Shown piece by piece: positions 48,475 to 64,000 of a stretch of DNA of 64,000 nucleotides (the stretch's first letter is position 1; each line of letters starts with the position of its first letter). Both the position numbers and the translations under genes were made by a program. A model generated the notes under the pieces. That model searched no databases and had not been told where the DNA came from. It saw only the letters and a list, made by a program, of their open reading frames with translations. This stretch comes from Halalkalicoccus sp. CG83 (GTDB lineage: Archaea; Halobacteriota; Halobacteria; Halobacteriales; Halalkalicoccaceae). The stretch lies in assembly GCF_037081715.1 (NCBI RefSeq), contig NZ_JAZDDH010000001.1:930001-994000 (forward strand), read 5' to 3'.

Positions 48475-49755
48475 ATGCACACGCGCGAGTTCTGGGTCCT
48501 CGACGACGACGACCGGGAGCTCGTCGAGCGACTGGCGGTGGGGCTCGGCGAGACGGCGGCTCGCGTCCTCGCCTACCTGATTCTGCGTCGCGAACGGGAG
48601 GAGATCACGAACGCGCCGGCGACGCAGCTCGCCGTGCGGATCGGGACGGAGACGAACCGCACGGCCGTCGCCGACGCGCTCTCGCGGCTCGAGGGGCGCT
48701 CGCTCGTCTCGACGACGACGGCCCGAGGTGGCGGCCGTGGACGGCCGCCGAAGGCGTGGCACGTCCCCGACGGACCGGAGGCGACCGTCGAACGCGTCTA
48801 CGAACGACACGCCGAGGAGCTCCTGGAACGGGCGTCGACCCTCCTCGCGGACGGCACCGGAGAACTGGATCCGACCGGCGACCCCGACGGGTCCGCCGCC
48901 ACGGTCGGGCTCAACTGGCGACCGAACGGCCTCCACGTTCCGTTCCACGCCGCGGCCGACCTCGAGGGCGATCGGTGGGAGAGGCTTTCCATGGAGTTGG
49001 CACACTATCGCGGATCGCGCCGGGCGCTCGATGCCGTTCTCTCCGACGACGTCGACGCCGGCGTCGTCGGCGCCGCGACCGTCGTCCGCGCGCGGGCGGC
49101 CGACAAGCCAGTCGTTCCGATCGCGGTCCTCTACCAGCGGGCGATGACCGCCCTCTACACCACCCGAGAGGCGTTCGGCGAGCCGCTGTCGAGCGTCGAC
49201 CAGCTTCGCGGCCGTCGGATCGGGACGCCGGCGGGATCCGAGACGGACGTGCTCTGTCGGCTGTTCGTCTCGCAGACGGCCATCGCCGAGACGATCGAGT
49301 TCGTCGACACGGGCGGCGAGGAGCGCAAGGCGCTTCGCTCCGGGACGGTGGACGTCGTCACGGGCTCGTTCTCGGATCCACGACGGCTGGAACTCGAGGG
49401 ATCGACGGTGGACTCGATCCTGGTCGCCGATCACTTCCCCATCTACGGGCCGACGCTGGTCGTCCACGAGGAGACGCTGTTCGATCGAACCGCGTTGCTC
49501 GGGCGACTTCTCGAGCGGACGATACACGGCTGGGCGGACGCGTGCTATCGGCCCGACGACGCCGTTCGAGCGATCGCGGCGGGGAGCGACGAGACGCCGG
49601 AGGAGGTACGTCGAACGTTCGAACGGGCGGTCGAGGAGTTCGCCACGGCCGACGCCGTCCGTGACCACGGCTGGGGCTGGCAGCGTGCCGAGACCTGGGA
49701 ACGAATCGAGACGGCGCTCCGACAGGGAGAGCTCCTTCACGACACCGCCAGATAG
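48475..49755 (+). CDS. Winged-helix regulator fused to an NMT1/THI5-like substrate-binding domain
   Basis: A 426-residue one-component regulator candidate. Residues 1-95 form a winged helix (REFWVLDDDDRELVERLAVG, GTETNRTAVADALSRLEGRS) with a basic wing (TTARGGGRGRPPKAWHVP). Residues about 145-400 resemble the NMT1/THI5-type periplasmic-binding fold (PNGLHVPFHAAADLEGDRWE, VGAATVVRARAADKPVVPIA, GRRIGTPAGSETDVLCRLFV). There is no signal peptide, so the binding domain is probably cytoplasmic and senses a metabolite. Homologous binding proteins bind thiamine-pathway pyrimidines or nitrate/sulfonates; the ligand here is unknown. Confidence 0.75.
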   Translation: MHTREFWVLDDDDRELVERLAVGLGETAARVLAYLILRREREEITNAPATQLAVRIGTETNRTAVADALSRLEGRSLVSTTTARGGGRGRPPKAWHVPDGPEATVERVYERHAEELLERASTLLADGTGELDPTGDPDGSAATVGLNWRPNGLHVPFHAAADLEGDRWERLSMELAHYRGSRRALDAVLSDDVDAGVVGAATVVRARAADKPVVPIAVLYQRAMTALYTTREAFGEPLSSVDQLRGRRIGTPAGSETDVLCRLFVSQTAIAETIEFVDTGGEERKALRSGTVDVVTGSFSDPRRLELEGSTVDSILVADHFPIYGPTLVVHEETLFDRTALLGRLLERTIHGWADACYRPDDAVRAIAAGSDETPEEVRRTFERAVEEFATADAVRDHGWGWQRAETWERIETALRQGELLHDTAR

Positions 49756-49812: not shown

Positions 49813-51990
49813 TCAGTCGAGGCGATCGCGGTTGGTTCGGCTCAGCTCGATCTCCTCGAATGCGCGTTCGAAGTGGTCGCCCGTCAGCTCGATCGATCCG
49901 ACGTCGACACCGGTCGGACCCTCCCTCGTCGTCCGGACGTACCCCCTGACCGCCGCGGCCGCCGCCTCTCGGCAGAGCGCCTCGAGGTCGGCTCCGACGA
50001 AGCCGTCGGTCCGCTCGACGAGCGTCTCGATCGAGACCTCGTCGGCGAGCGGCTTCTCACGCGTGTGGATCCGGAGGATCTCGCGGCGGGCGTCGGCGTC
50101 GGGGACGGTGATGGGGACGTGTCGGTCGAGGCGACCCGGACGCAGGAGCGCGGAGTCGATCAGATCCGGCCGGTTGGTCGTCGCGATCACGACGACGTCC
50201 TCGAGCGCCTCGAGCCCGTCGAGCTCGGTCAACAGCTGGGAGACGACGCGCTCGCCGACGTTCGCGCCGCCCTCCTCACGGCCGCGTTCGCCCGCGAGCG
50301 CATCGATCTCGTCGAAGAAGATCACCGTCGGGGCGTTCTCGCGAGCCTTGCTGAACACCTCGCGGACCCCCTTCTCCGATTCGCCGACGAACTTATCGAA
50401 CAGTTCGGGGCCCTTGATCGAGATGAAGTTCGACTCGGCCTCGTTGGCGACGGCCTTCGCGAGCAGGGTCTTGCCCGTGCCCGGCGGGCCGTAGAGCAAC
50501 ACACCCTTCGCGGGTCGGAGGTCGACCCGCTCGAAGGCGTCCGCATGCTCCAGAGGCCACTGGACGGTCTCCCTGAGCCGTTCCTTGACGTCCTCGAACC
50601 CGCCGACGTCGTCCCACGAGACGTCGGGGACGTCGACGAACAGCTCCCGGAGCGCCGACGGCTCCGTCCCCCGAAGCGCCGCCTCGAAGTCGTCGACGGT
50701 CAGGCGGATCGGTTCGACGGCGCTCGCCTCGGCGTCCTCGTCGGACTCGAACGCCGGACGGACCCGTCTCGCCGCGTGCATCGCGGCCTCGCGCACGAGA
50801 TCCTCCAGGTCCGCGCCGACGAAGCCGTGGGTGTGGTCGGCGTAGCGGTCGAGATCGACCTCCTCGGCTAGCGTCGTTCCGCGCGTGTGGAGCCCGAGGA
50901 TCTCCCGGCGCTCCTCGGCGTTCGGGACGCCGATCTCGATCTCCCGGTCGAACCGTCCCGGGCGCCTGAGTGCGGGATCGAGATCGTCCACCCGGTTGGT
51001 CGTACCGAGCACGGTGATCCGTTCGCGCGTCTCGTCCATGAGCGAGAGCAGCCGGGCGGTGATCCGCCGTTCCGGCTCGCCGGCGCCCTCGCGATCGGAC
51101 GCGATCGCGTCGATCTCGTCGAGGAGGACGAGCGCCGGCTCCTCGCCCCGGACCGCCTCGAACGCGGCTCCGAGCGGATCCTCCTCGCCGTAGCTCCTCG
51201 AGACGATCTCGGGACCCGACAGCGTCTCGACGCGAACGTCGAGTTCGCCGGCGACGGCCCTCGCGAGCAGCGTCTTGCCGGTCCCGGACGGGCCGTGCAG
51301 CAACACTCCCCGCGGAGGTTCGACGCCCAGGCGCTCGAACAGCCCGGCGTGGCGCATCGGCAGTTCGATCAGCTCCCGCAGTCGCTCGAGTTCGTCGTCG
51401 AGACCGCCGACGTCCTCGTAGGTGACGGCCGACGTCCGCGGATCGGGCGCGTCGTCGGCCGAGAGCCCCTCCGCGGGTGACTCCGAGACTACGATGTCGG
51501 TCCAGTCCTCGACGACGACCAGCCCGTCCGGCTCCGTCTCCACGATTTCGACCGGGAGACGCCACTGCGATCGTCTCGAGACGGAGCCGTAGCCGGGGCG
51601 AACGGAGACCGTCCGCCCGCTCGTCACGACCCGATCGACGAGCCCCTCCCGCACCGAGAGACCGACCTCCGGCCGGGGGTCGAGATCCGACGGCAGAGCG
51701 ATCGTGATCCGTTCGGCCGCCCTCGCCTCCGCCGGTTCGACGGCCACCCGATCCCCGACGTCGACGCCGGCCTCGCGACGCAGCCGCTCGCCGATCCGGA
51801 CGACCGGTCCGCCGCCGTCCGTGATGTCGACGGGGTCGGCCGTGGCCCGCGCTACCGTCCCAGGGCCGTCCCCGTCGTCGATGCGGACGAACCCGCCGTT
51901 CTCGAGCCCCAGTTCCGCCAGCGTTCCGCGGTCGAGCGCCACCACGCCGTCGTCGGCCTCCACGGACGCCGGTTTGACCGTGGCCCTCAT
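49813..51990 (-). CDS. CDC48-family AAA+ ATPase with two ATPase modules
   Basis: A 725-residue CDC48/p97-type unfoldase. Order: N-terminal double-psi barrel region (1-~95), linker, D1 with Walker A GPSGTGKT (233-240) and Walker B LVLLDEIDAI (~287-296), and D2 with Walker A GPPGTGKT and Walker B VIFFDEIDAL. The ARPGRFD-type arginine finger motif is present in both (RRPGRFD, LRPGRLD). In D1 the usual second Pro of GPPGTGKT is Ser. It probably extracts or unfolds proteins for degradation. It follows a zinc-ribbon membrane protein gene by 52 bp, same strand. Confidence 0.92.
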   Translation of the reverse strand: MRATVKPASVEADDGVVALDRGTLAELGLENGGFVRIDDGDGPGTVARATADPVDITDGGGPVVRIGERLRREAGVDVGDRVAVEPAEARAAERITIALPSDLDPRPEVGLSVREGLVDRVVTSGRTVSVRPGYGSVSRRSQWRLPVEIVETEPDGLVVVEDWTDIVVSESPAEGLSADDAPDPRTSAVTYEDVGGLDDELERLRELIELPMRHAGLFERLGVEPPRGVLLHGPSGTGKTLLARAVAGELDVRVETLSGPEIVSRSYGEEDPLGAAFEAVRGEEPALVLLDEIDAIASDREGAGEPERRITARLLSLMDETRERITVLGTTNRVDDLDPALRRPGRFDREIEIGVPNAEERREILGLHTRGTTLAEEVDLDRYADHTHGFVGADLEDLVREAAMHAARRVRPAFESDEDAEASAVEPIRLTVDDFEAALRGTEPSALRELFVDVPDVSWDDVGGFEDVKERLRETVQWPLEHADAFERVDLRPAKGVLLYGPPGTGKTLLAKAVANEAESNFISIKGPELFDKFVGESEKGVREVFSKARENAPTVIFFDEIDALAGERGREEGGANVGERVVSQLLTELDGLEALEDVVVIATTNRPDLIDSALLRPGRLDRHVPITVPDADARREILRIHTREKPLADEVSIETLVERTDGFVGADLEALCREAAAAAVRGYVRTTREGPTGVDVGSIELTGDHFERAFEEIELSRTNRDRLD

Positions 51991-54093: not shown

Positions 54094-55800
54094 ATGTCAA
54101 TAGACGACGACAGAGCCGTGAAAGCGGCACAGGATACGGTTGTACGGGAGACGGACAACGGCTACCGAGTTCTCGGCGCGCCCGAGAAGTCGGTCACTCA
54201 CCAGCACGACATCGACCGCATCCCCGAGGTGGACGTCACCCAGGAGATGCTGAACGAGACCGCGGAGAACCCCGAGAGCTGGCTGCTCTACGGCGGTGGC
54301 TACGAACACCACCGCTACACGACGTGTGAGGTCATCACGAAGGACAACGTCTCGGACCTCGAACTCGAACACGACATGTCGGTCGGCGCCGGCTCGAGCA
54401 TGGAGGGGACCCCGCTGATCGTGCCGGGAGACCCGCCGATCATGTACCAGTCGAACGGCCCGAACCACATCAAGGCGATCGACCCCCGTGAGGGCGACGT
54501 CCTCTGGAGCTACACGTACGCGGTGCCCAACGACGTGGTACTCTGCTGTGACGACAACAACCGCGGCCCCGGCGTCTTCGGCGATAAGGTGTTCATGACG
54601 ACGCTCGACTCGGGCGTCGTCGCGCTGGATCGCTACACCGGCGAGGAGGAGTGGTACCACGGCACCGCCGACCACGAGCGTGGCTACTCCGCGACGTGGG
54701 CGCCGATGATCTACGACGGGACGCTCTACACGGGAAGCGCCGGTGGCGAGTACGGGGTCCGGGGCTTCCACACCGCCATCGACACCGAGAGCGGCGACGA
54801 GGTCTGGTCGATCAACGTCTCGCCGGAGACCGAGTGGGTCGGCGACAGCATCGAGCAGTCCTCCTGTACCAACTGGATGACCGCGACGATCGACCACGAG
54901 AACGGGCGGATCTACATGCCGATCGGCAACCCCGGGCCGGACTTCGACGGCTCGGTGCGTCCGGGCCCGAACCGCAACAGCGCCGGGACGCTCTGTCTCG
55001 ACCTCGAGACGGGTGAGGAGCTGTGGTTCCACCAGGAGTCCGCCCACGACATCTGGGACTACGACTCGGCGATGCCCCGCATCCTGATCCGCGACGTCGA
55101 GGTCCGGGGCAAGACCCGCGACGTCGTCGTCTCGGTCGGCAAGACGGCGTGGCTCTACACGATGGACGCCGAGACCGGCGAACTGCTCGTCCGGAGCGAA
55201 CCGGGCGCCCAGCAGCTCAACATGTTCCGGATGATCCCCCACATCGACGAGGGGCGACGCGTTCCGTTCATGCCCGGCGGCATGGGCGGCAACGACTGGC
55301 AGCCCGGCTGCTACAACCCCGAGCTCGGCATCACCTACCACAAGCTCCACAACTCCTTCCAGGAGGCGTGGTGGCGCTTCGAGGAGTTCGAAGCAGGCAA
55401 GAAGTACTGGGGCGGCATCCTCGAGGACGAGACCGAGGCGGTCCCCGACGACTACAACGGCCACATCAGCGTCATCACGGCGTTCGATCCGCTGACGGGT
55501 GAGACCGCCTGGCAGGACTGGATCGACAGCGACGTCTATCTCTGGGGCGGCACGATGGCGACCAAGACGGGACTGATGTTCGCGGGCACGCAGAACGGCA
55601 ACCTCGTGGGCTACGACGGCGAGTCGGGCGAGCGCCTCTGGGAGTTCGACGCGGGCGACGCGCCGATCTCCGGCGACCCGGTGAGCTGGTACGACCCCGG
55701 CACCGAGAAGCAGTATCTCGCGATCCAGGTCGGCGGCAGCGGCTGGCTGCGCCGCGGCGAGCGCGACGACCGGCTGCTCGTCTTCTCGATGGAGGAGTAA
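54094..55800 (+). CDS. PQQ-dependent alcohol dehydrogenase, quinoprotein with lanthanide-type motif
   Basis: A 568-residue eight-bladed quinoprotein of the methanol/ethanol dehydrogenase type. Visible features: vicinal C151-C152 (the disulfide ring over PQQ), E219 in AGGEYGVRG and N279 in GNPGP as metal ligands, and D322-Y323-D324 in IWDYDSA. In this family D322 aligns with the catalytic Asp; the extra Asp two residues on (D324) is the residue seen in lanthanide-dependent XoxF and ExaF, and is Ala or Ser in calcium enzymes. Several tryptophan-docking repeats (GEEEWYH, GDEVWSI, GEELWFH, GERLWEF) mark the blades. There is no signal peptide, unlike bacterial relatives. The alcohol oxidised is unknown. 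Confidence 0.88.
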   Translation: MSIDDDRAVKAAQDTVVRETDNGYRVLGAPEKSVTHQHDIDRIPEVDVTQEMLNETAENPESWLLYGGGYEHHRYTTCEVITKDNVSDLELEHDMSVGAGSSMEGTPLIVPGDPPIMYQSNGPNHIKAIDPREGDVLWSYTYAVPNDVVLCCDDNNRGPGVFGDKVFMTTLDSGVVALDRYTGEEEWYHGTADHERGYSATWAPMIYDGTLYTGSAGGEYGVRGFHTAIDTESGDEVWSINVSPETEWVGDSIEQSSCTNWMTATIDHENGRIYMPIGNPGPDFDGSVRPGPNRNSAGTLCLDLETGEELWFHQESAHDIWDYDSAMPRILIRDVEVRGKTRDVVVSVGKTAWLYTMDAETGELLVRSEPGAQQLNMFRMIPHIDEGRRVPFMPGGMGGNDWQPGCYNPELGITYHKLHNSFQEAWWRFEEFEAGKKYWGGILEDETEAVPDDYNGHISVITAFDPLTGETAWQDWIDSDVYLWGGTMATKTGLMFAGTQNGNLVGYDGESGERLWEFDAGDAPISGDPVSWYDPGTEKQYLAIQVGGSGWLRRGERDDRLLVFSMEE

Positions 55801-57007: not shown

Positions 57008-57757
57008 TCACCATCCCGACGGCGACGGCTCCGCGACGACGAGGACGTAGGGTTCGTCGCCACCGGGTCGTTCGACTTCTTTCGTCCGTTCGACCGAGAA
57101 CCCCGCCTCGGCGACGCGGGAGCGCCAGTACGCCTCCGGATCGTCGACGCCGTCGGGGACGATGGGCAGTTCGAGCACGCCGAGGGTTCCCCCGGGCGCA
57201 CAGACGCGGTGGGCCTCCCGAAGCGCCGGTCCGACGTCCTCGGCGGGCAGGTCGTGGAGAACCCGACAGGCCGTCACGACGTCCTGCGTGTCGGTCGCCA
57301 CCGGCATCCGGGCGGCGTCTCCCTTGACGGGCGTTACGTCGACTCCCGCCTCGCGGGCGTTTCGCCGCGCGAGCAGCGGTGCGTTGCCCAGGATGACGCG
57401 ATCGTCGAAGACGTCGAGGCCGACGACCGTACAGCCATCGGGGATCCGCGGTGCGAGCCCGACGAGCGACCGTCCAGTCCCGCAACCGACGTCGAGGACG
57501 GTACTCGCCCCTTCGAGAGGGAGTTCGGCGACGAGCGCGTCGTACTTGTAGCGTTCGAGCGTCCACGGCGCCGGCCGGAGCAGCTTCGAGAGCGGGCGAC
57601 TCGCACGATCGACCGAGCCGAGCGCCACGAACAGCCCGAGGAAGCGAGCGCCGCGAACCGGACTGCGCCGGAGGACCGCGGCGAGCGCCAGCCCACAGAG
57701 CGCGAGCAGCAACGAGCGTGACCGTTCGCGCCAGTGATACAGGCCGAAGTAGTACAC
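57008..57757 (-). CDS. Class I SAM-dependent methyltransferase with N-terminal membrane segments
   Basis: A 249-residue methyltransferase. Residues 10-50 are hydrophobic (LLLALCGLALAAVLR, FLGLFVALGSV) and could anchor it to the membrane. The Rossmann methyltransferase core follows with motif I VLDVGCGTGRSLVGLA, motif II VVGLDVFDD and motif III region VVTACRVLHDLPAEDV. The start is a GTG at 57757, 2 bp after the amphi-Trp gene, so the pair is co-transcribed. Target unknown. Confidence 0.8.
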   Translation of the reverse strand: MYYFGLYHWRERSRSLLLALCGLALAAVLRRSPVRGARFLGLFVALGSVDRASRPLSKLLRPAPWTLERYKYDALVAELPLEGASTVLDVGCGTGRSLVGLAPRIPDGCTVVGLDVFDDRVILGNAPLLARRNAREAGVDVTPVKGDAARMPVATDTQDVVTACRVLHDLPAEDVGPALREAHRVCAPGGTLGVLELPIVPDGVDDPEAYWRSRVAEAGFSVERTKEVERPGGDEPYVLVVAEPSPSGW

Positions 57758-57759
57758 GA

Positions 57760-58068
57760 TCAGCTCACGTCGAGGCCGCTCGCGCCGCCGTCGTGCGCCT
57801 CGGTGAACTCGACTTCGATCTCCAACTCGCCCTCGCGCTGTTTCGAGAACTCGACCTCGACCTCGATGGGCTCGCGGTAGGCGAACGGGATCTCCCAGTC
57901 CTCTCCCGAGACCGTGATCCGTGTGTCGTCCTCGATCCCGTCCGCGAGATGACGGAGGAACGCCGCCGTCTCCTCTCGCGAGAGGTGGACCTCGCGCTCG
58001 AAGAAGCCGCTGGTGATCGTCTTTCGGTGCTCGGTCCCCTTGTCCGGGAAGTCGATGTCCTCCGCCAT
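57760..58068 (-). CDS. Amphi-Trp domain protein
   Basis: A 102-residue protein of the amphi-Trp domain family: the first part reads RKTITSGFFEREVHLSREET, and the conserved amphipathic strand pair follows with a Trp in VSGEDWEIPFAYREPIEVEV. These small domains occur widely in archaea and bacteria, function unknown. Upstream of, and coupled to, the methyltransferase gene. Confidence 0.82.
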   Translation of the reverse strand: MAEDIDFPDKGTEHRKTITSGFFEREVHLSREETAAFLRHLADGIEDDTRITVSGEDWEIPFAYREPIEVEVEFSKQREGELEIEVEFTEAHDGGASGLDVS

Positions 58069-58138
58069 GGTCCTCGGTACCATCCACGCTACCATTAATC
58101 CCGGTCCCCGTCGCGGGCGTGGGAGAGTAGTAACGTCT

Positions 58139-58459
58139 ATGACTAACCGACACGATGGCTCGTTCGTGTCCCTGATCGACGTGCTGGGGAGTACGCCTCG
58201 ACTGAAGATCGTCCGGGAGCTCTCCCACGGACCGAAGTACGTCTCCGAACTCACCGAGGCCGTGGGAATGGACGGAAAGACGGCCGTCCACCACCTCTCG
58301 ACGCTAGAGGAGGCCGACCTGGTCGAACACTACCATCAGGGCAACCGCAAGTACTACCGGCTCGTCCGTACGGTGGAACTGCGCATCGTCCCGCCGCCGG
58401 AGCGGACGTTCATCCTCCAGGCGAACGAACGGGCCGATACGCCCTCGGCCAACGACTGA
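58139..58459 (+). CDS. ArsR-type winged helix-turn-helix regulator
   Basis: A 106-residue small DNA-binding protein: LGSTPRLKIVRELSHGPKYV, SELTEAVGMDGKTAVHHLST and the wing NRKYYRLVRTVELRIVPPP. It lacks the metal-binding cysteines of classical ArsR. It is divergent from the amphi-Trp gene with a 70-bp gap and might control it. Confidence 0.82.
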   Translation: MTNRHDGSFVSLIDVLGSTPRLKIVRELSHGPKYVSELTEAVGMDGKTAVHHLSTLEEADLVEHYHQGNRKYYRLVRTVELRIVPPPERTFILQANERADTPSAND

Positions 58460-58542
58460 CCCGCCCTCCTGCGCCGTCGAACGCGAACGAAGCGACGAGG
58501 GGCGGCCAAAGCTATATGACGAATCGTGGTAATTGTGCTCGT

Positions 58543-58989
58543 ATGTCTTCCAAGGACGGGCTGACGGTCGAGACGGGCGAGGAGGGCGAATCGACGGTCG
58601 ACTACCAGATCGAGGAACTGATCGCGCGCCGAACGGGGGAGCTCGAGGACCGCGTCGAGGAGTTGGAGGACGAGCTGACGGAGGTGGAGAACTTCGCGCG
58701 AATAAGCCTGGGCGAGCGACGGCTCAAACAGAACGAGGCGAACATCTCGGAGTTCTCGGAGTCGCTCACCGCGTTCGCGGAACGGACGTTCACCAAGATG
58801 AACGCGCTCGAGAACCGCCTCGAGGTACAGACGCTGCTCCTGACGTCGCTCATCGACGCGGTCTCGGAGTCCGACGACGTCGAGATCGACGTCTCCGAGG
58901 TGAAGCAATATCAGAACGATCAGCTGGTGATGAGCGCGTCGGCCGATCAGCGCCTCCAGGAGGCGATCGAGGAGCTGTCGAACGACTGA
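58543..58989 (+). CDS. Coiled-coil protein of unknown function
   Basis: A 148-residue acidic protein with a long predicted coiled coil from about residue 18 to 100 (IEELIARRTGELEDRVEELE, RLKQNEANISEFSESLTAFA). GCTATATGAC lies about 28 bp upstream of the ATG at 58543, supporting a leaderless start. No recognised domain. Confidence 0.68.
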   Translation: MSSKDGLTVETGEEGESTVDYQIEELIARRTGELEDRVEELEDELTEVENFARISLGERRLKQNEANISEFSESLTAFAERTFTKMNALENRLEVQTLLLTSLIDAVSESDDVEIDVSEVKQYQNDQLVMSASADQRLQEAIEELSND

Positions 58990-59016: not shown

Positions 59017-59493
59017 CTACACTTCTCGCACGCCGATGACGCGGTCCTGGAGGTAGTCGAGATACATGGCGTTGTAGACGATCTTGACCTCGTCGCTGAC
59101 CGGGATGCTCTGGCAGGTCAGGTAGATGTTCCGTTCCTCGACCTCCTCGTCCGTGAGGATCAGATCCATGTCCATCTCCAGCTCTCCCTCCTTGAGGATG
59201 GCCGTACAGTTCGCACACGAGGCCGCGCGACACTCGAAGGGCCATTCGTGGCCCTCGTCCTCCGCGGCGTCGAGGAGGTAGCGCGTCCCGTTGATCTCGA
59301 AACGTCCGTGGTCGGTCTCCTCCAGGTCGGCCTCGGCAGCCTTCTCGAAGAGGTCGTCGTCGTCGATCTCCCACTCGCGTTCGGCGATCGCCTGGTAGTT
59401 GAGGTACTCCACCGTGTACGTCGGCAGCTCCTCGGGGTCCATGTCCGCCTCCGCGTCCCGCCCGACCTTGATGTTAGGAAGGCTCGATGACAT
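59017..59493 (-). CDS. Halobacterial [2Fe-2S] ferredoxin
   Basis: A 158-residue plant-type ferredoxin of the halobacterial kind, with the acidic N-terminal insert (YLNYQAIAEREWEIDDDDLF) typical of these proteins. Cluster ligands are C88, C93, C96 (CRAASCANC) and C127. The C-terminal helix VKIVYNAMYLDYLQDRVIGV matches. The N-terminus is about 25 residues longer than that of Halobacterium ferredoxin; an internal Met at residue 18 is an alternative start. A TATA-like AGTTAAGTAG lies about 29 bp before the first ATG. Confidence 0.93.
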   Translation of the reverse strand: MSSSLPNIKVGRDAEADMDPEELPTYTVEYLNYQAIAEREWEIDDDDLFEKAAEADLEETDHGRFEINGTRYLLDAAEDEGHEWPFECRAASCANCTAILKEGELEMDMDLILTDEEVEERNIYLTCQSIPVSDEVKIVYNAMYLDYLQDRVIGVREV

Positions 59494-59656
59494 ACACCGA
59501 CTATCGTGATACTCCTACTTAACTGCCCTGCTGAGTGGTATCACCCGCCGCTTTCGATCGTCCCTCGTCCGTCGGCGCGCGGTGGCGCTCGCCGTCCCGA
59601 GAGTTCGAGACGCCGAATGGGTGGTCTTTTTACCGATCGTGGGTCATTCGTCACGG

Positions 59657-60649
59657 GTGGACGTATCCACCGTCGTCGCCGTGGCGCTGTTTCTCGCCGG
59701 GATAGCACTGGTCGTCTGGAGCGTCGAACGGTTCGTCGAGGCGGTGGCTCGGAGCGCGGTGTCGCTCGGCGTATCGGGCTTCCTCCTGGCCGTGGTGCTC
59801 GCGGGCGTGGACCTCGAGAACGCGATCCTCGGGATCACGGCGGCGTACGGCGACCTCTCCGATCTCGCGCTCGGAACCGTGTTCGGCGAGGCCGTCTTCG
59901 TTCTCACGGTCGCCGTCGGCGTCGCCGGCGTTCTCGTGCCCTTCGAGACGAGGGTGCCGCGGTCGTACCTCCTGCTCTCGCTCTCGGTACCGGTTCCGAT
60001 GGCGGTGCTATCCCTGACCGGGACGCTAACGTGGACCGACGGTCTCCTGCTCTCGCTCTCGTTTCTCCCGTTGCTGTTCCTGATCTACGCGCTCGAACGG
60101 CGGACGGAGACGCGATACATGGTCGCCGAGGAGGTCGAGGAGGTGATCGGCCTCGACGAGGAGTCCGGGGAGGAGGTCGACGAGAGCGAGGCCGCGACCG
60201 GGACGCGCGCCGGCTGGTATCACCTCGGCGTGGCGCTCGGCGCGACCGTCCTCATGACCGTCGGTTCCGCCATCGCGGTCGCGGGCGCCGAGGGAGTGTT
60301 GAACGCGTTCGACCTGTCGGGGCTCGCCTTCGGCGCGACGGTAATGAGCTTCATCGCCTCGCTCGAGGAGCTGCTCCTGACGGTCGAACCGGTCCGGAAG
60401 GGCCGCCCGGAGATCGCGGTCGGCAACGTCGTCGGTAGCACGCTGTTCTACGTCACCGCCAACGCCGGTCTGATCGCGCTGATCCGTCCCATCGACACCG
60501 GCGGAGCCGTCATGACCGTTCACTGGCCGTTCTTCGCGCTCTCGCTCGTGCTGGTCGTGGCGATGTTCTATCGAGGACGCGTCGGACGCCTCGGCGGGAC
60601 GGCGCTCCTCGCGCTCTACGTCGGTTACTGGCTCGCGAACTACCTCTGA
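59657..60649 (+). CDS. Divergent cation/Ca2+ exchanger-like membrane protein
   Basis: A 330-residue protein related to sodium/calcium exchangers (CaCA superfamily), with about ten membrane segments and a central acidic loop (EEVEEVIGLDEESGEEVDES). The second alpha-repeat is recognisable (SLEELLLTVEPVRKGRPEIA, VGNVVGSTLFYVTANAG), but the first lacks the usual GTSxPE motif (here VLAGVDLENAILG). Start: a GTG at 59657 lies about 29 bp after CTTTTTACC and is preferred to the GTG at 59582. Ion specificity cannot be assigned. Confidence 0.78.
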   Translation: MDVSTVVAVALFLAGIALVVWSVERFVEAVARSAVSLGVSGFLLAVVLAGVDLENAILGITAAYGDLSDLALGTVFGEAVFVLTVAVGVAGVLVPFETRVPRSYLLLSLSVPVPMAVLSLTGTLTWTDGLLLSLSFLPLLFLIYALERRTETRYMVAEEVEEVIGLDEESGEEVDESEAATGTRAGWYHLGVALGATVLMTVGSAIAVAGAEGVLNAFDLSGLAFGATVMSFIASLEELLLTVEPVRKGRPEIAVGNVVGSTLFYVTANAGLIALIRPIDTGGAVMTVHWPFFALSLVLVVAMFYRGRVGRLGGTALLALYVGYWLANYL

Positions 60650-60737
60650 TCGTACCCGTCCGCGAGACCCCATCAGGGCGCGTCGATCGGGTCGTCCGTG
60701 CGACGGAGGGGAACGACGGTACGATGCGTCGAACCGG

Positions 60738-61841
60738 TCAGCCGGCGATCGGAACGCCGCCGAGGACGAACACGGCGACGAGCCAGTAGACGACGTACAG
60801 TCCCCCCAGGAGGACGCCGTGCCGTCGGCGTAACCGTCGCGTTCCCACGAAGTACGCTCCGAGGGCGGTGAGGACCAACAGTGCCGGGAGATGGAAGTAG
60901 AGCACGCTCGTGCCGATCTCCAGATCGGCCAACAGCAGGACGAATCCGATGTTTCCCGTCACCGAGAACACGACGCTGCCGATCACGTGGCCGATGCCGA
61001 TCTCGGGGAACCCGCGTCGGACCGGCTCCAGGGTGAGGAGGACGTTCTCGAAGGTCAGCAGCAGCGTGATGACGGTGGCGCCGAAGACGGTCTCCTCCAT
61101 GCCGGTCTCCTCGACGACGACCTCCGAACCGACCTCGATCAGGATCGAACCGAGGACGACGCCGGCGAGCGCGACGACGGCCAGACCGATCCAGACGTAG
61201 CCGGCGTACGTTCGGTGGGCGACGAACTCGTCCTCGAGGATCGGCTCGATCCGGTCGTGGGCCGCGATGCCGCCGTCGGCTTCGATCACCTCGTCGGTTT
61301 CGACGCCGCCGTCGGTCTCGACGCGTTCGATGACGTCGGTGTCACGGAACACCGGCACGTTTCGGCGGTGCTCCATGTAGACGACGTAGGCGAGAAACGC
61401 GAAGAACAGGACGAGCAGCCCGATCCCGTGGATCACGGTGAGGGTTCCCAGCAGGACGAGCGGCAGGAGCACCAGCGGCGAGACGACGAGCAATACGAGG
61501 TAGTCACGGGGAACGTCGACGGAGAACGGCTGGACGATCGCCGCGAGCGCCAGCGTGATCCCGACGATCGCCAGCGCGGTACCCAGCGCCGTGCCGAGGG
61601 CGACGTCCTCCAGTCCGCCGGAGGCGAACACCAGCGCTAGGATCGTGTCGTCGAACTCGAACCCGGTGAAAAGTATCGCCAGCGAGAAGACCGAGACGCC
61701 GAGTCCCAACGCCGCCCTCGTCAGATAGCTGATCAGTTTCTCGATGAACGCCAGGAGCATCACCCCGCCCGTCGCCAGCACCAGAAACGCGAACCACAGC
61801 CCCTGTGACTCGACGAACGACTCGATCGCTTCCTCGACCAT
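60738..61841 (-). CDS. Second divergent cation exchanger-like membrane protein
   Basis: A 367-residue paralogue of the neighbouring protein. The second alpha-repeat reads TFENVLLTLEPVRRGFPEIG and GHVIGSVVFSVTGNIGFVLL, where GH replaces the usual GN. An extended acidic and His-containing loop lies in the middle (DVIERVETDGGVETDEVIEA, IAAHDRIEPILEDEFVAH). A minus-strand TATA-like AATTATTAG lies about 29 bp before the ATG at 61841; an in-frame GTG at 61856 is the alternative start. The two paralogues converge, 88 bp apart. Confidence 0.77.
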   Translation of the reverse strand: MVEEAIESFVESQGLWFAFLVLATGGVMLLAFIEKLISYLTRAALGLGVSVFSLAILFTGFEFDDTILALVFASGGLEDVALGTALGTALAIVGITLALAAIVQPFSVDVPRDYLVLLVVSPLVLLPLVLLGTLTVIHGIGLLVLFFAFLAYVVYMEHRRNVPVFRDTDVIERVETDGGVETDEVIEADGGIAAHDRIEPILEDEFVAHRTYAGYVWIGLAVVALAGVVLGSILIEVGSEVVVEETGMEETVFGATVITLLLTFENVLLTLEPVRRGFPEIGIGHVIGSVVFSVTGNIGFVLLLADLEIGTSVLYFHLPALLVLTALGAYFVGTRRLRRRHGVLLGGLYVVYWLVAVFVLGGVPIAG

Positions 61842-62039
61842 CGACTGTTCACCCACCCCGATAACTAATAATTGTTATCGTTCGGGTAGTCGGGTTCATG
61901 GGAATTTTATACACGCGTTCGGTCCCGCTCGTCCGACGACGGCCCTCACCGTCGAACGCGCGACGCGGCGACGGGCGTCGGCGTCGCTCGTGTAGTGGAG
62001 CGATTCCAGCGACGGGTCGTTCGTCCTTCCGTTCGTACC

Positions 62040-63833: not shown

Positions 63834-64000
63834 TCACTCGCCGAGCGAGAACACCACGAGCCGGTCCCCGCGAGGCCCGCGGCCGACGAACCCGCTGCCG
63901 CCGACCTGGATCGCGACGTACTGCTTCTCGGTGCCGGGATCGTACCAGCTCACCGGGTCGCCGCTGACGGCCTTGTCGCTGACGTCGAACTCCCAGAGAC
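63834..64000 (-). CDS. PQQ-dependent dehydrogenase, 3' end of a paralogue (partial)
   Basis: The last 54 codons of a gene running off the right edge. The peptide ends with GDPVSWYDPGTEKQYVAIQV and GDRLVVFSLGE and is identical to the C-terminus of the quinoprotein at 54094-55800 at about 40 of 54 positions. The paralogue is on the opposite strand. The active-site region and any export signal lie outside the window. Confidence 0.88.
   Translation of the reverse strand, partial: LWEFDVSDKAVSGDPVSWYDPGTEKQYVAIQVGGSGFVGRGPRGDRLVVFSLGE

Follow-up and report, generated by a model that had tools for sequence, protein, structure and literature searches.

To our knowledge, the lanthanide enzymes described so far are PQQ dehydrogenases of bacteria and act outside the cytoplasm, and those closest to the locus analysed here are the ethanol dehydrogenase PedH/ExaF and the methanol dehydrogenase XoxF. 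An extra aspartate in such quinoproteins is treated as a lanthanide marker (PMC11996626), and Good et al. 2020, as cited by that paper, concluded that this residue is essential. Quinoproteins with a DYD motif have been reported from marine Thaumarchaeota (PMC7300363), and in the open-access literature that we searched we found no report of a lanthanide-type alcohol dehydrogenase from haloarchaea. The window analysed here, a 64,000-nucleotide stretch of the Halalkalicoccus sp. CG83 genome, encodes an alcohol dehydrogenase (ADH) for which lanthanide use is a good prediction from sequence. The broader result is a family of haloarchaeal enzymes with a partner protein of no recognised Pfam family or PDB fold, and with signs of a move from outside the cell to inside. 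Beyond the original prediction, which had proposed such an enzyme, there are an obligate partner gene, an absent export signal, a changed electron-carrier neighbour and a second copy past the window's end (Table 1).

From sequence and predicted fold, the ADH reading frame is confirmed as real and as a PQQ-family quinoprotein. It opens with ATG, its 568 residues match Pfam PQQ at E=1e-51, and an AlphaFold2 model built on the haloarchaeal alignment (pLDDT 82, pTM 0.88, with low-confidence loops near the active site at 282-292 and 318-320) has the quinoprotein propeller fold. Foldseek against the PDB ranks this model closest to PedH 6zcv (E=2.6e-40) and 6zcw, then XoxF 6dam and 4mae, then the calcium enzymes, and phmmer likewise puts PedH first and XoxF next. 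The score against NCBIfam TIGR03075 (PQQ_enz_alc_DH) is 353 bits, under the curated cut-off of 480 bits. In a maximum-likelihood tree of 56 sequences, some of whose bacterial rows are long-branched, all 39 haloarchaeal proteins fall on a single branch (support 100/100) outside the XoxF, PedH and quinohemoprotein clades. By sequence, then, the ADH is neither a XoxF nor a PedH orthologue, and belongs to a deep haloarchaeal branch of its own, in which 20 rows form the window's clade, nested and with full support.

Table 1. The ADH, its ligand residues and linked genes in the window, with positions counted from the window's first nucleotide.
Feature	Position	Strand	Remarks
NMT1-type substrate-binding protein	48478..49755	+	N-terminal extension; no apparent signal peptide
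Module CDC48-type AAA ATPase	49813..51990	-	Upstream start uncertain
Obligate partner P0002	53176..54087	+	303 aa, all-helical, no Pfam/PDB match; N-terminus aligns with deep-subfamily Tat signal, degenerate here
Quinoprotein alcohol dehydrogenase (ADH, P0001), lanthanide-type ligand set	54094..55800	+	568 aa; no signal peptide apparent
Vicinal cysteines C151-C152	54544..54549	+	Conserved in CC clade, missing in deep clade
Metal ligand E219, GGEYG motif	54748..54750	+	Gly preceding Glu as in XoxF and PedH; from alignment
Metal ligand N279	54928..54930	+	From alignment
Catalytic D322, Y323, D324 (lanthanide column)	55057..55065	+	From alignment
Class I methyltransferase	57008..57754	-	Often linked
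Amphi-Trp domain protein	57760..58254	-	Linked; N-terminal extent uncertain
ArsR-type helix-turn-helix regulator	58100..58459	+	Linked
Small protein	58516..58989	+	Adjoins ADH in window's clade
[2Fe-2S] ferredoxin	59017..59493	-	ADH-linked in nearly all window-clade loci, none outside
Na/Ca-exchanger-family membrane protein 1	59582..60649	+	Divergent alpha-repeat motifs
Na/Ca-exchanger-family membrane protein 2	60738..61856	-	Divergent alpha-repeat motifs
3' end of second lanthanide-type ADH	63834..64000	-	65% identical; remainder and own P0002-type partner just beyond window, C1:993834-996496

The original prediction rested on the Asp-Tyr-Asp of this quinoprotein, on the second aspartate falling in the lanthanide column, and on the vicinal cysteines and the Glu and Asn metal ligands, and alignments to solved structures found each of these in place. 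D322 and D324 are in register with the Asp-x-Asp of PedH (6zcv, DFD) and XoxF (6dam and 4mae, DYD), E219 aligns to the Glu of GGEFG, and N279 to the Asn ligand; the D324 column in calcium enzymes holds Ala (MxaF-type), Ser (1flg) or Thr (the quinohemoproteins 1yiq, 1kb0 and 8gy2). The residue before E219 is Gly in the ADH, XoxF and PedH, and Ala in 1yiq. Lys350 replaces the PQQ-contacting Arg of XoxF and PedH, as in quinohemoproteins. The four metal ligands and Y323 are invariant in 27/27 aligned haloarchaeal sequences at identities down to 39%, and all five residues are kept in the 39 homologues (39/39) of a wider haloarchaeal set. A deep subfamily (L031, L033, L096-L100) retains E-N-D-D but has lost the vicinal Cys pair. 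Because the ligand set is invariant across these homologues, the D-Y-D is not a product of chance.

A PQQ alcohol or sugar dehydrogenase dependent on Ca2+ or Mg2+, in which the extra aspartate is tolerated and a lanthanide is not the physiological metal, seems to us a rather doubtful alternative. A glucose-dehydrogenase-like quinoprotein from Pantoea (L080) also has DYD, the motif is found too in the characterised membrane glucose dehydrogenase mGDH, which is regarded as using Ca or Mg and for which only facultative lanthanide use is predicted (PMC11996626), and genes of the Na/Ca-exchanger family lie close to the ADH. However, Asp and Ser take the place of the Glu and Asn ligands in the Pantoea sequence, whereas the ADH matches XoxF/PedH at every ligand, as well as at the Gly preceding the Glu, and the four ligands hold across the divergence of its family. 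DxD by itself thus over-predicts lanthanide use, and the full E-N-D-D set is therefore the better predictor. The original interpretation is thus partly supported: a lanthanide-type metal site is upheld by this set, the preceding Gly and the PedH-best fold, and lanthanide use itself stays a prediction. PQQ synthesis (below) and orthology to XoxF or ExaF/PedH found no support, the latter given the separate deep clade and the score below the TIGR03075 cut-off.

The ADH and P0002, whose genes are separated by 6 nt, are an obligate pair. Among 116 Halobacteria, a profile search found P0002 in nine genomes, precisely those that have the ADH, with every copy (14/14) adjacent to an ADH gene (Fisher p 1e-13, uncorrected for relatedness). 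The AlphaFold2 model of P0002 is helical (pLDDT 88.5) and finds no PDB fold match at E<0.2. We considered whether P0002 might be a known subunit and rejected this, as Pfam at E up to 1 gives no family beyond scattered weak matches (one of them to the Tat-signal model), and no PDB fold is shared.

A Tat-type motif (such as DRREFLKALGVVAGGGVAGA) is borne by P0002 of the deep subfamily, which lacks the CC pair, and of the L026/L086 branch at the base of the CC group. The aligned stretch in the window's clade is polar, with the Tat motif gone; judged from sequence without a trained predictor, neither the ADH nor P0002 of this clade has an apparent export signal. Outside the window's clade, a gene for a blue-copper protein with a Tat signal adjoins the ADH in 19/19 loci; the three of these proteins that were scanned match PF00127. 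The window-clade loci, across 438 kb, contain no open reading frame with a Tat-cupredoxin signature. The [2Fe-2S] ferredoxin has the opposite distribution. This copper protein is sometimes fused to a GSDH domain; beside deep-clade ADHs, L097:8052-10109 and L096:12242-14347 encode Tat-exported fusions of plastocyanin-type copper and glucose/sorbosone dehydrogenase domains. An intermediate clade (L022, L024, L025, L030 and L032) has P0002 without the Tat motif and a cupredoxin with it, so that the cupredoxin may carry the ADH complex there.

These patterns suggest that the window-clade ADH was relocated from outside the cell into the cytoplasm. Since the window's clade is nested and fully supported, the simplest reading is a single change in which export and the blue-copper partner were lost; because the clade's members are related, the many genomes that share it would reflect a single event and should not be counted as 40 independent ones. 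It could instead be that the enzyme is exported after all, carried out by another Tat protein, with its electrons going to a copper protein whose gene lies elsewhere. Every close outgroup pairs with a Tat cupredoxin, and the intermediate clade, with its signal on the cupredoxin and not on P0002, makes a carrier in trans conceivable. We nonetheless consider export unlikely, as neither the ADH nor P0002 of the window's clade shows a Tat signal, the 438 kb around its loci hold no cupredoxin reading frame, and partners of intracellular type are linked instead.

Many ADH loci share a wider set of linked genes, which include the [2Fe-2S] ferredoxin, aldehyde ferredoxin oxidoreductases (AORs) and a cupin, NMT1-type substrate-binding proteins lacking an apparent signal, an ABC importer, and the CDC48-type ATPase, Na/Ca-exchanger-family pair, ArsR-type regulator and amphi-Trp protein. 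The whole module, two ADH copies included, sits on a 104 kb Halomarina plasmid (L068, NZ_CP100456.1 20373-46076), which suggests lateral movement of the module. AORs near ADH genes include L009:4588-6593 and L043:14736-16670, one of them with an adjoining ThiS/MoaD-type gene. NMT1-type proteins without an apparent signal peptide occur in the window (48478-49755) and at L009:2230-4183, and may therefore be intracellular ligand sensors. One such protein occurs in nine of the 116 genomes, and eight of these nine have the ADH; in a sampled genus of nine genomes it occurs in 4/4 with the ADH and 0/5 without, as do the exchangers. At E<1e-40 the exchangers are found in seven of the nine ADH genomes, 3.6-10.4 kb from the ADH, and in one ADH-less genome; their alpha-repeats read SLEE and DLEN where NCX_Mj has SLPE. 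The two exchanger genes at 59582-61856 face in opposite directions. The small protein at 58516..58989, followed by single-sequence search, is too divergent to trace beyond the genus, and the CDC48-type ATPase is a possible maturation factor. We saw no gene of any recognised lanthanide-handling type.

This gene content invites a bolder reading, which we put forward tentatively and would ourselves call somewhat improbable: a cytoplasmic archaeal module for rare-earth alcohol oxidation, in which a lanthanide PQQ enzyme shed Tat export along with its blue-copper acceptor, acquired neighbours in ferredoxin and a tungsten enzyme, and relies on a new helical partner and on exchanger-family proteins that would move Ln3+ across the membrane or expel competing Ca2+. 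Electron transfer from PQQH2 to ferredoxin is thermodynamically awkward, and on these general grounds we judged the ferredoxin unlikely to be the direct PQQH2 acceptor.

How the enzyme would obtain its cofactor is a separate matter. PQQ synthesis genes, which the original prediction proposed to look for in the genome, failed to appear: no PqqC scored above cut-off in the source genome or in any of the 116 Halobacteria, and as a positive control the same model gave 429 bits for PqqC on an S. meliloti plasmid. The search took in PqqC, PqqB and PqqE. PqqE gave weak matches only (~140 bits, where the cut-off is 381) and was set aside as a pathway member. Full-length PqqB-like proteins occur in five Halobacteria (L035-L039), 0/5 of which have the ADH, and were rejected as hidden PQQ synthesis, the two neighbourhoods that we read being those of solitary metallo-hydrolases. 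The PqqE and PqqB matches form no pathway. With PqqC absent, PQQ is therefore either scavenged or replaced.

A further alternative is that the enzyme uses another cofactor, or that it runs in the reductive direction, from aldehyde to alcohol, coupled to ferredoxin. The missing PqqC, the sub-threshold PqqE and the confinement of PqqB-like genes to ADH-less genomes all fit such a reading, as do the linkage to ferredoxin and AORs and the second-best NCBIfam match of the ADH, the 'acido-empty-quinoprotein' subfamily. We think it quite improbable all the same: the PQQ-pocket positions E104, C151-C152, R157, T259 and W261 are retained in the window's clade, and scavenging is plausible because many Gram-negative bacteria use PQQ without making it (PMC12124388).

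We therefore lean, with slightly better than even confidence, towards a PQQ-dependent lanthanide-type ADH in complex with P0002 that is probably cytoplasmic, may hand its aldehyde to AOR and ferredoxin, and scavenges its PQQ. By analogy with XoxF and PedH, a light Ln3+ ion would most likely hold PQQ in the ADH, and D322 would accept the alcohol proton as hydride passes to PQQ, yielding an aldehyde. The constant pairing of the genes is consistent with the enzyme acting in complex with the helical P0002, and this complex, having lost its Tat signal and blue-copper partner in the window's clade, would probably reside in the cytoplasm. The linked AOR and ferredoxin genes point to a possible onward route for the aldehyde, and the absent PqqC to PQQ taken up from outside.

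A family of haloarchaeal enzymes with all of these ligands would extend rare-earth biology, among organisms in culture, to a second domain of life, and archaeal lanthanide use could then be tested directly. If the enzyme is cytoplasmic, new questions follow about how Ln3+ and PQQ enter the cell and where the electrons go.

Among described systems, PedH/ExaF (6zcv/6zcw), a lanthanide-dependent ethanol dehydrogenase, is the best match in sequence and structure, and shares with the ADH the E-N-D-D ligands, the CC pair, the GGE motif, a Trp at 402 and the WGG motif. At ~26% identity it nevertheless lies in a separate clade, and unlike it the ADH has Lys350 for Arg, no apparent export signal and a helical partner in P0002. 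XoxF, the lanthanide-dependent methanol dehydrogenase (6dam, 4mae, 6oc5), has the same four ligands, DYD and CC pair, and again differs in clade, whereas the ADH has Lys350 and sits in an archaeal module; we saw no XoxG cytochrome or XoxJ-type partner for the ADH, and no c-type cytochrome among its identified linked genes. The membrane glucose dehydrogenase type, represented by the Pantoea homologue, shares DYD with the ADH, but its Glu and Asn ligands are replaced and it lies far off in the tree. The quinoproteins of heterotrophic marine Thaumarchaeota are, like the ADH, archaeal PQQ-dehydrogenase homologues, some with DYD; by their published description they are set apart in being without CC and mostly with signal peptides or TM segments, whereas the window's clade has the CC pair and no signal (PMC7300363).
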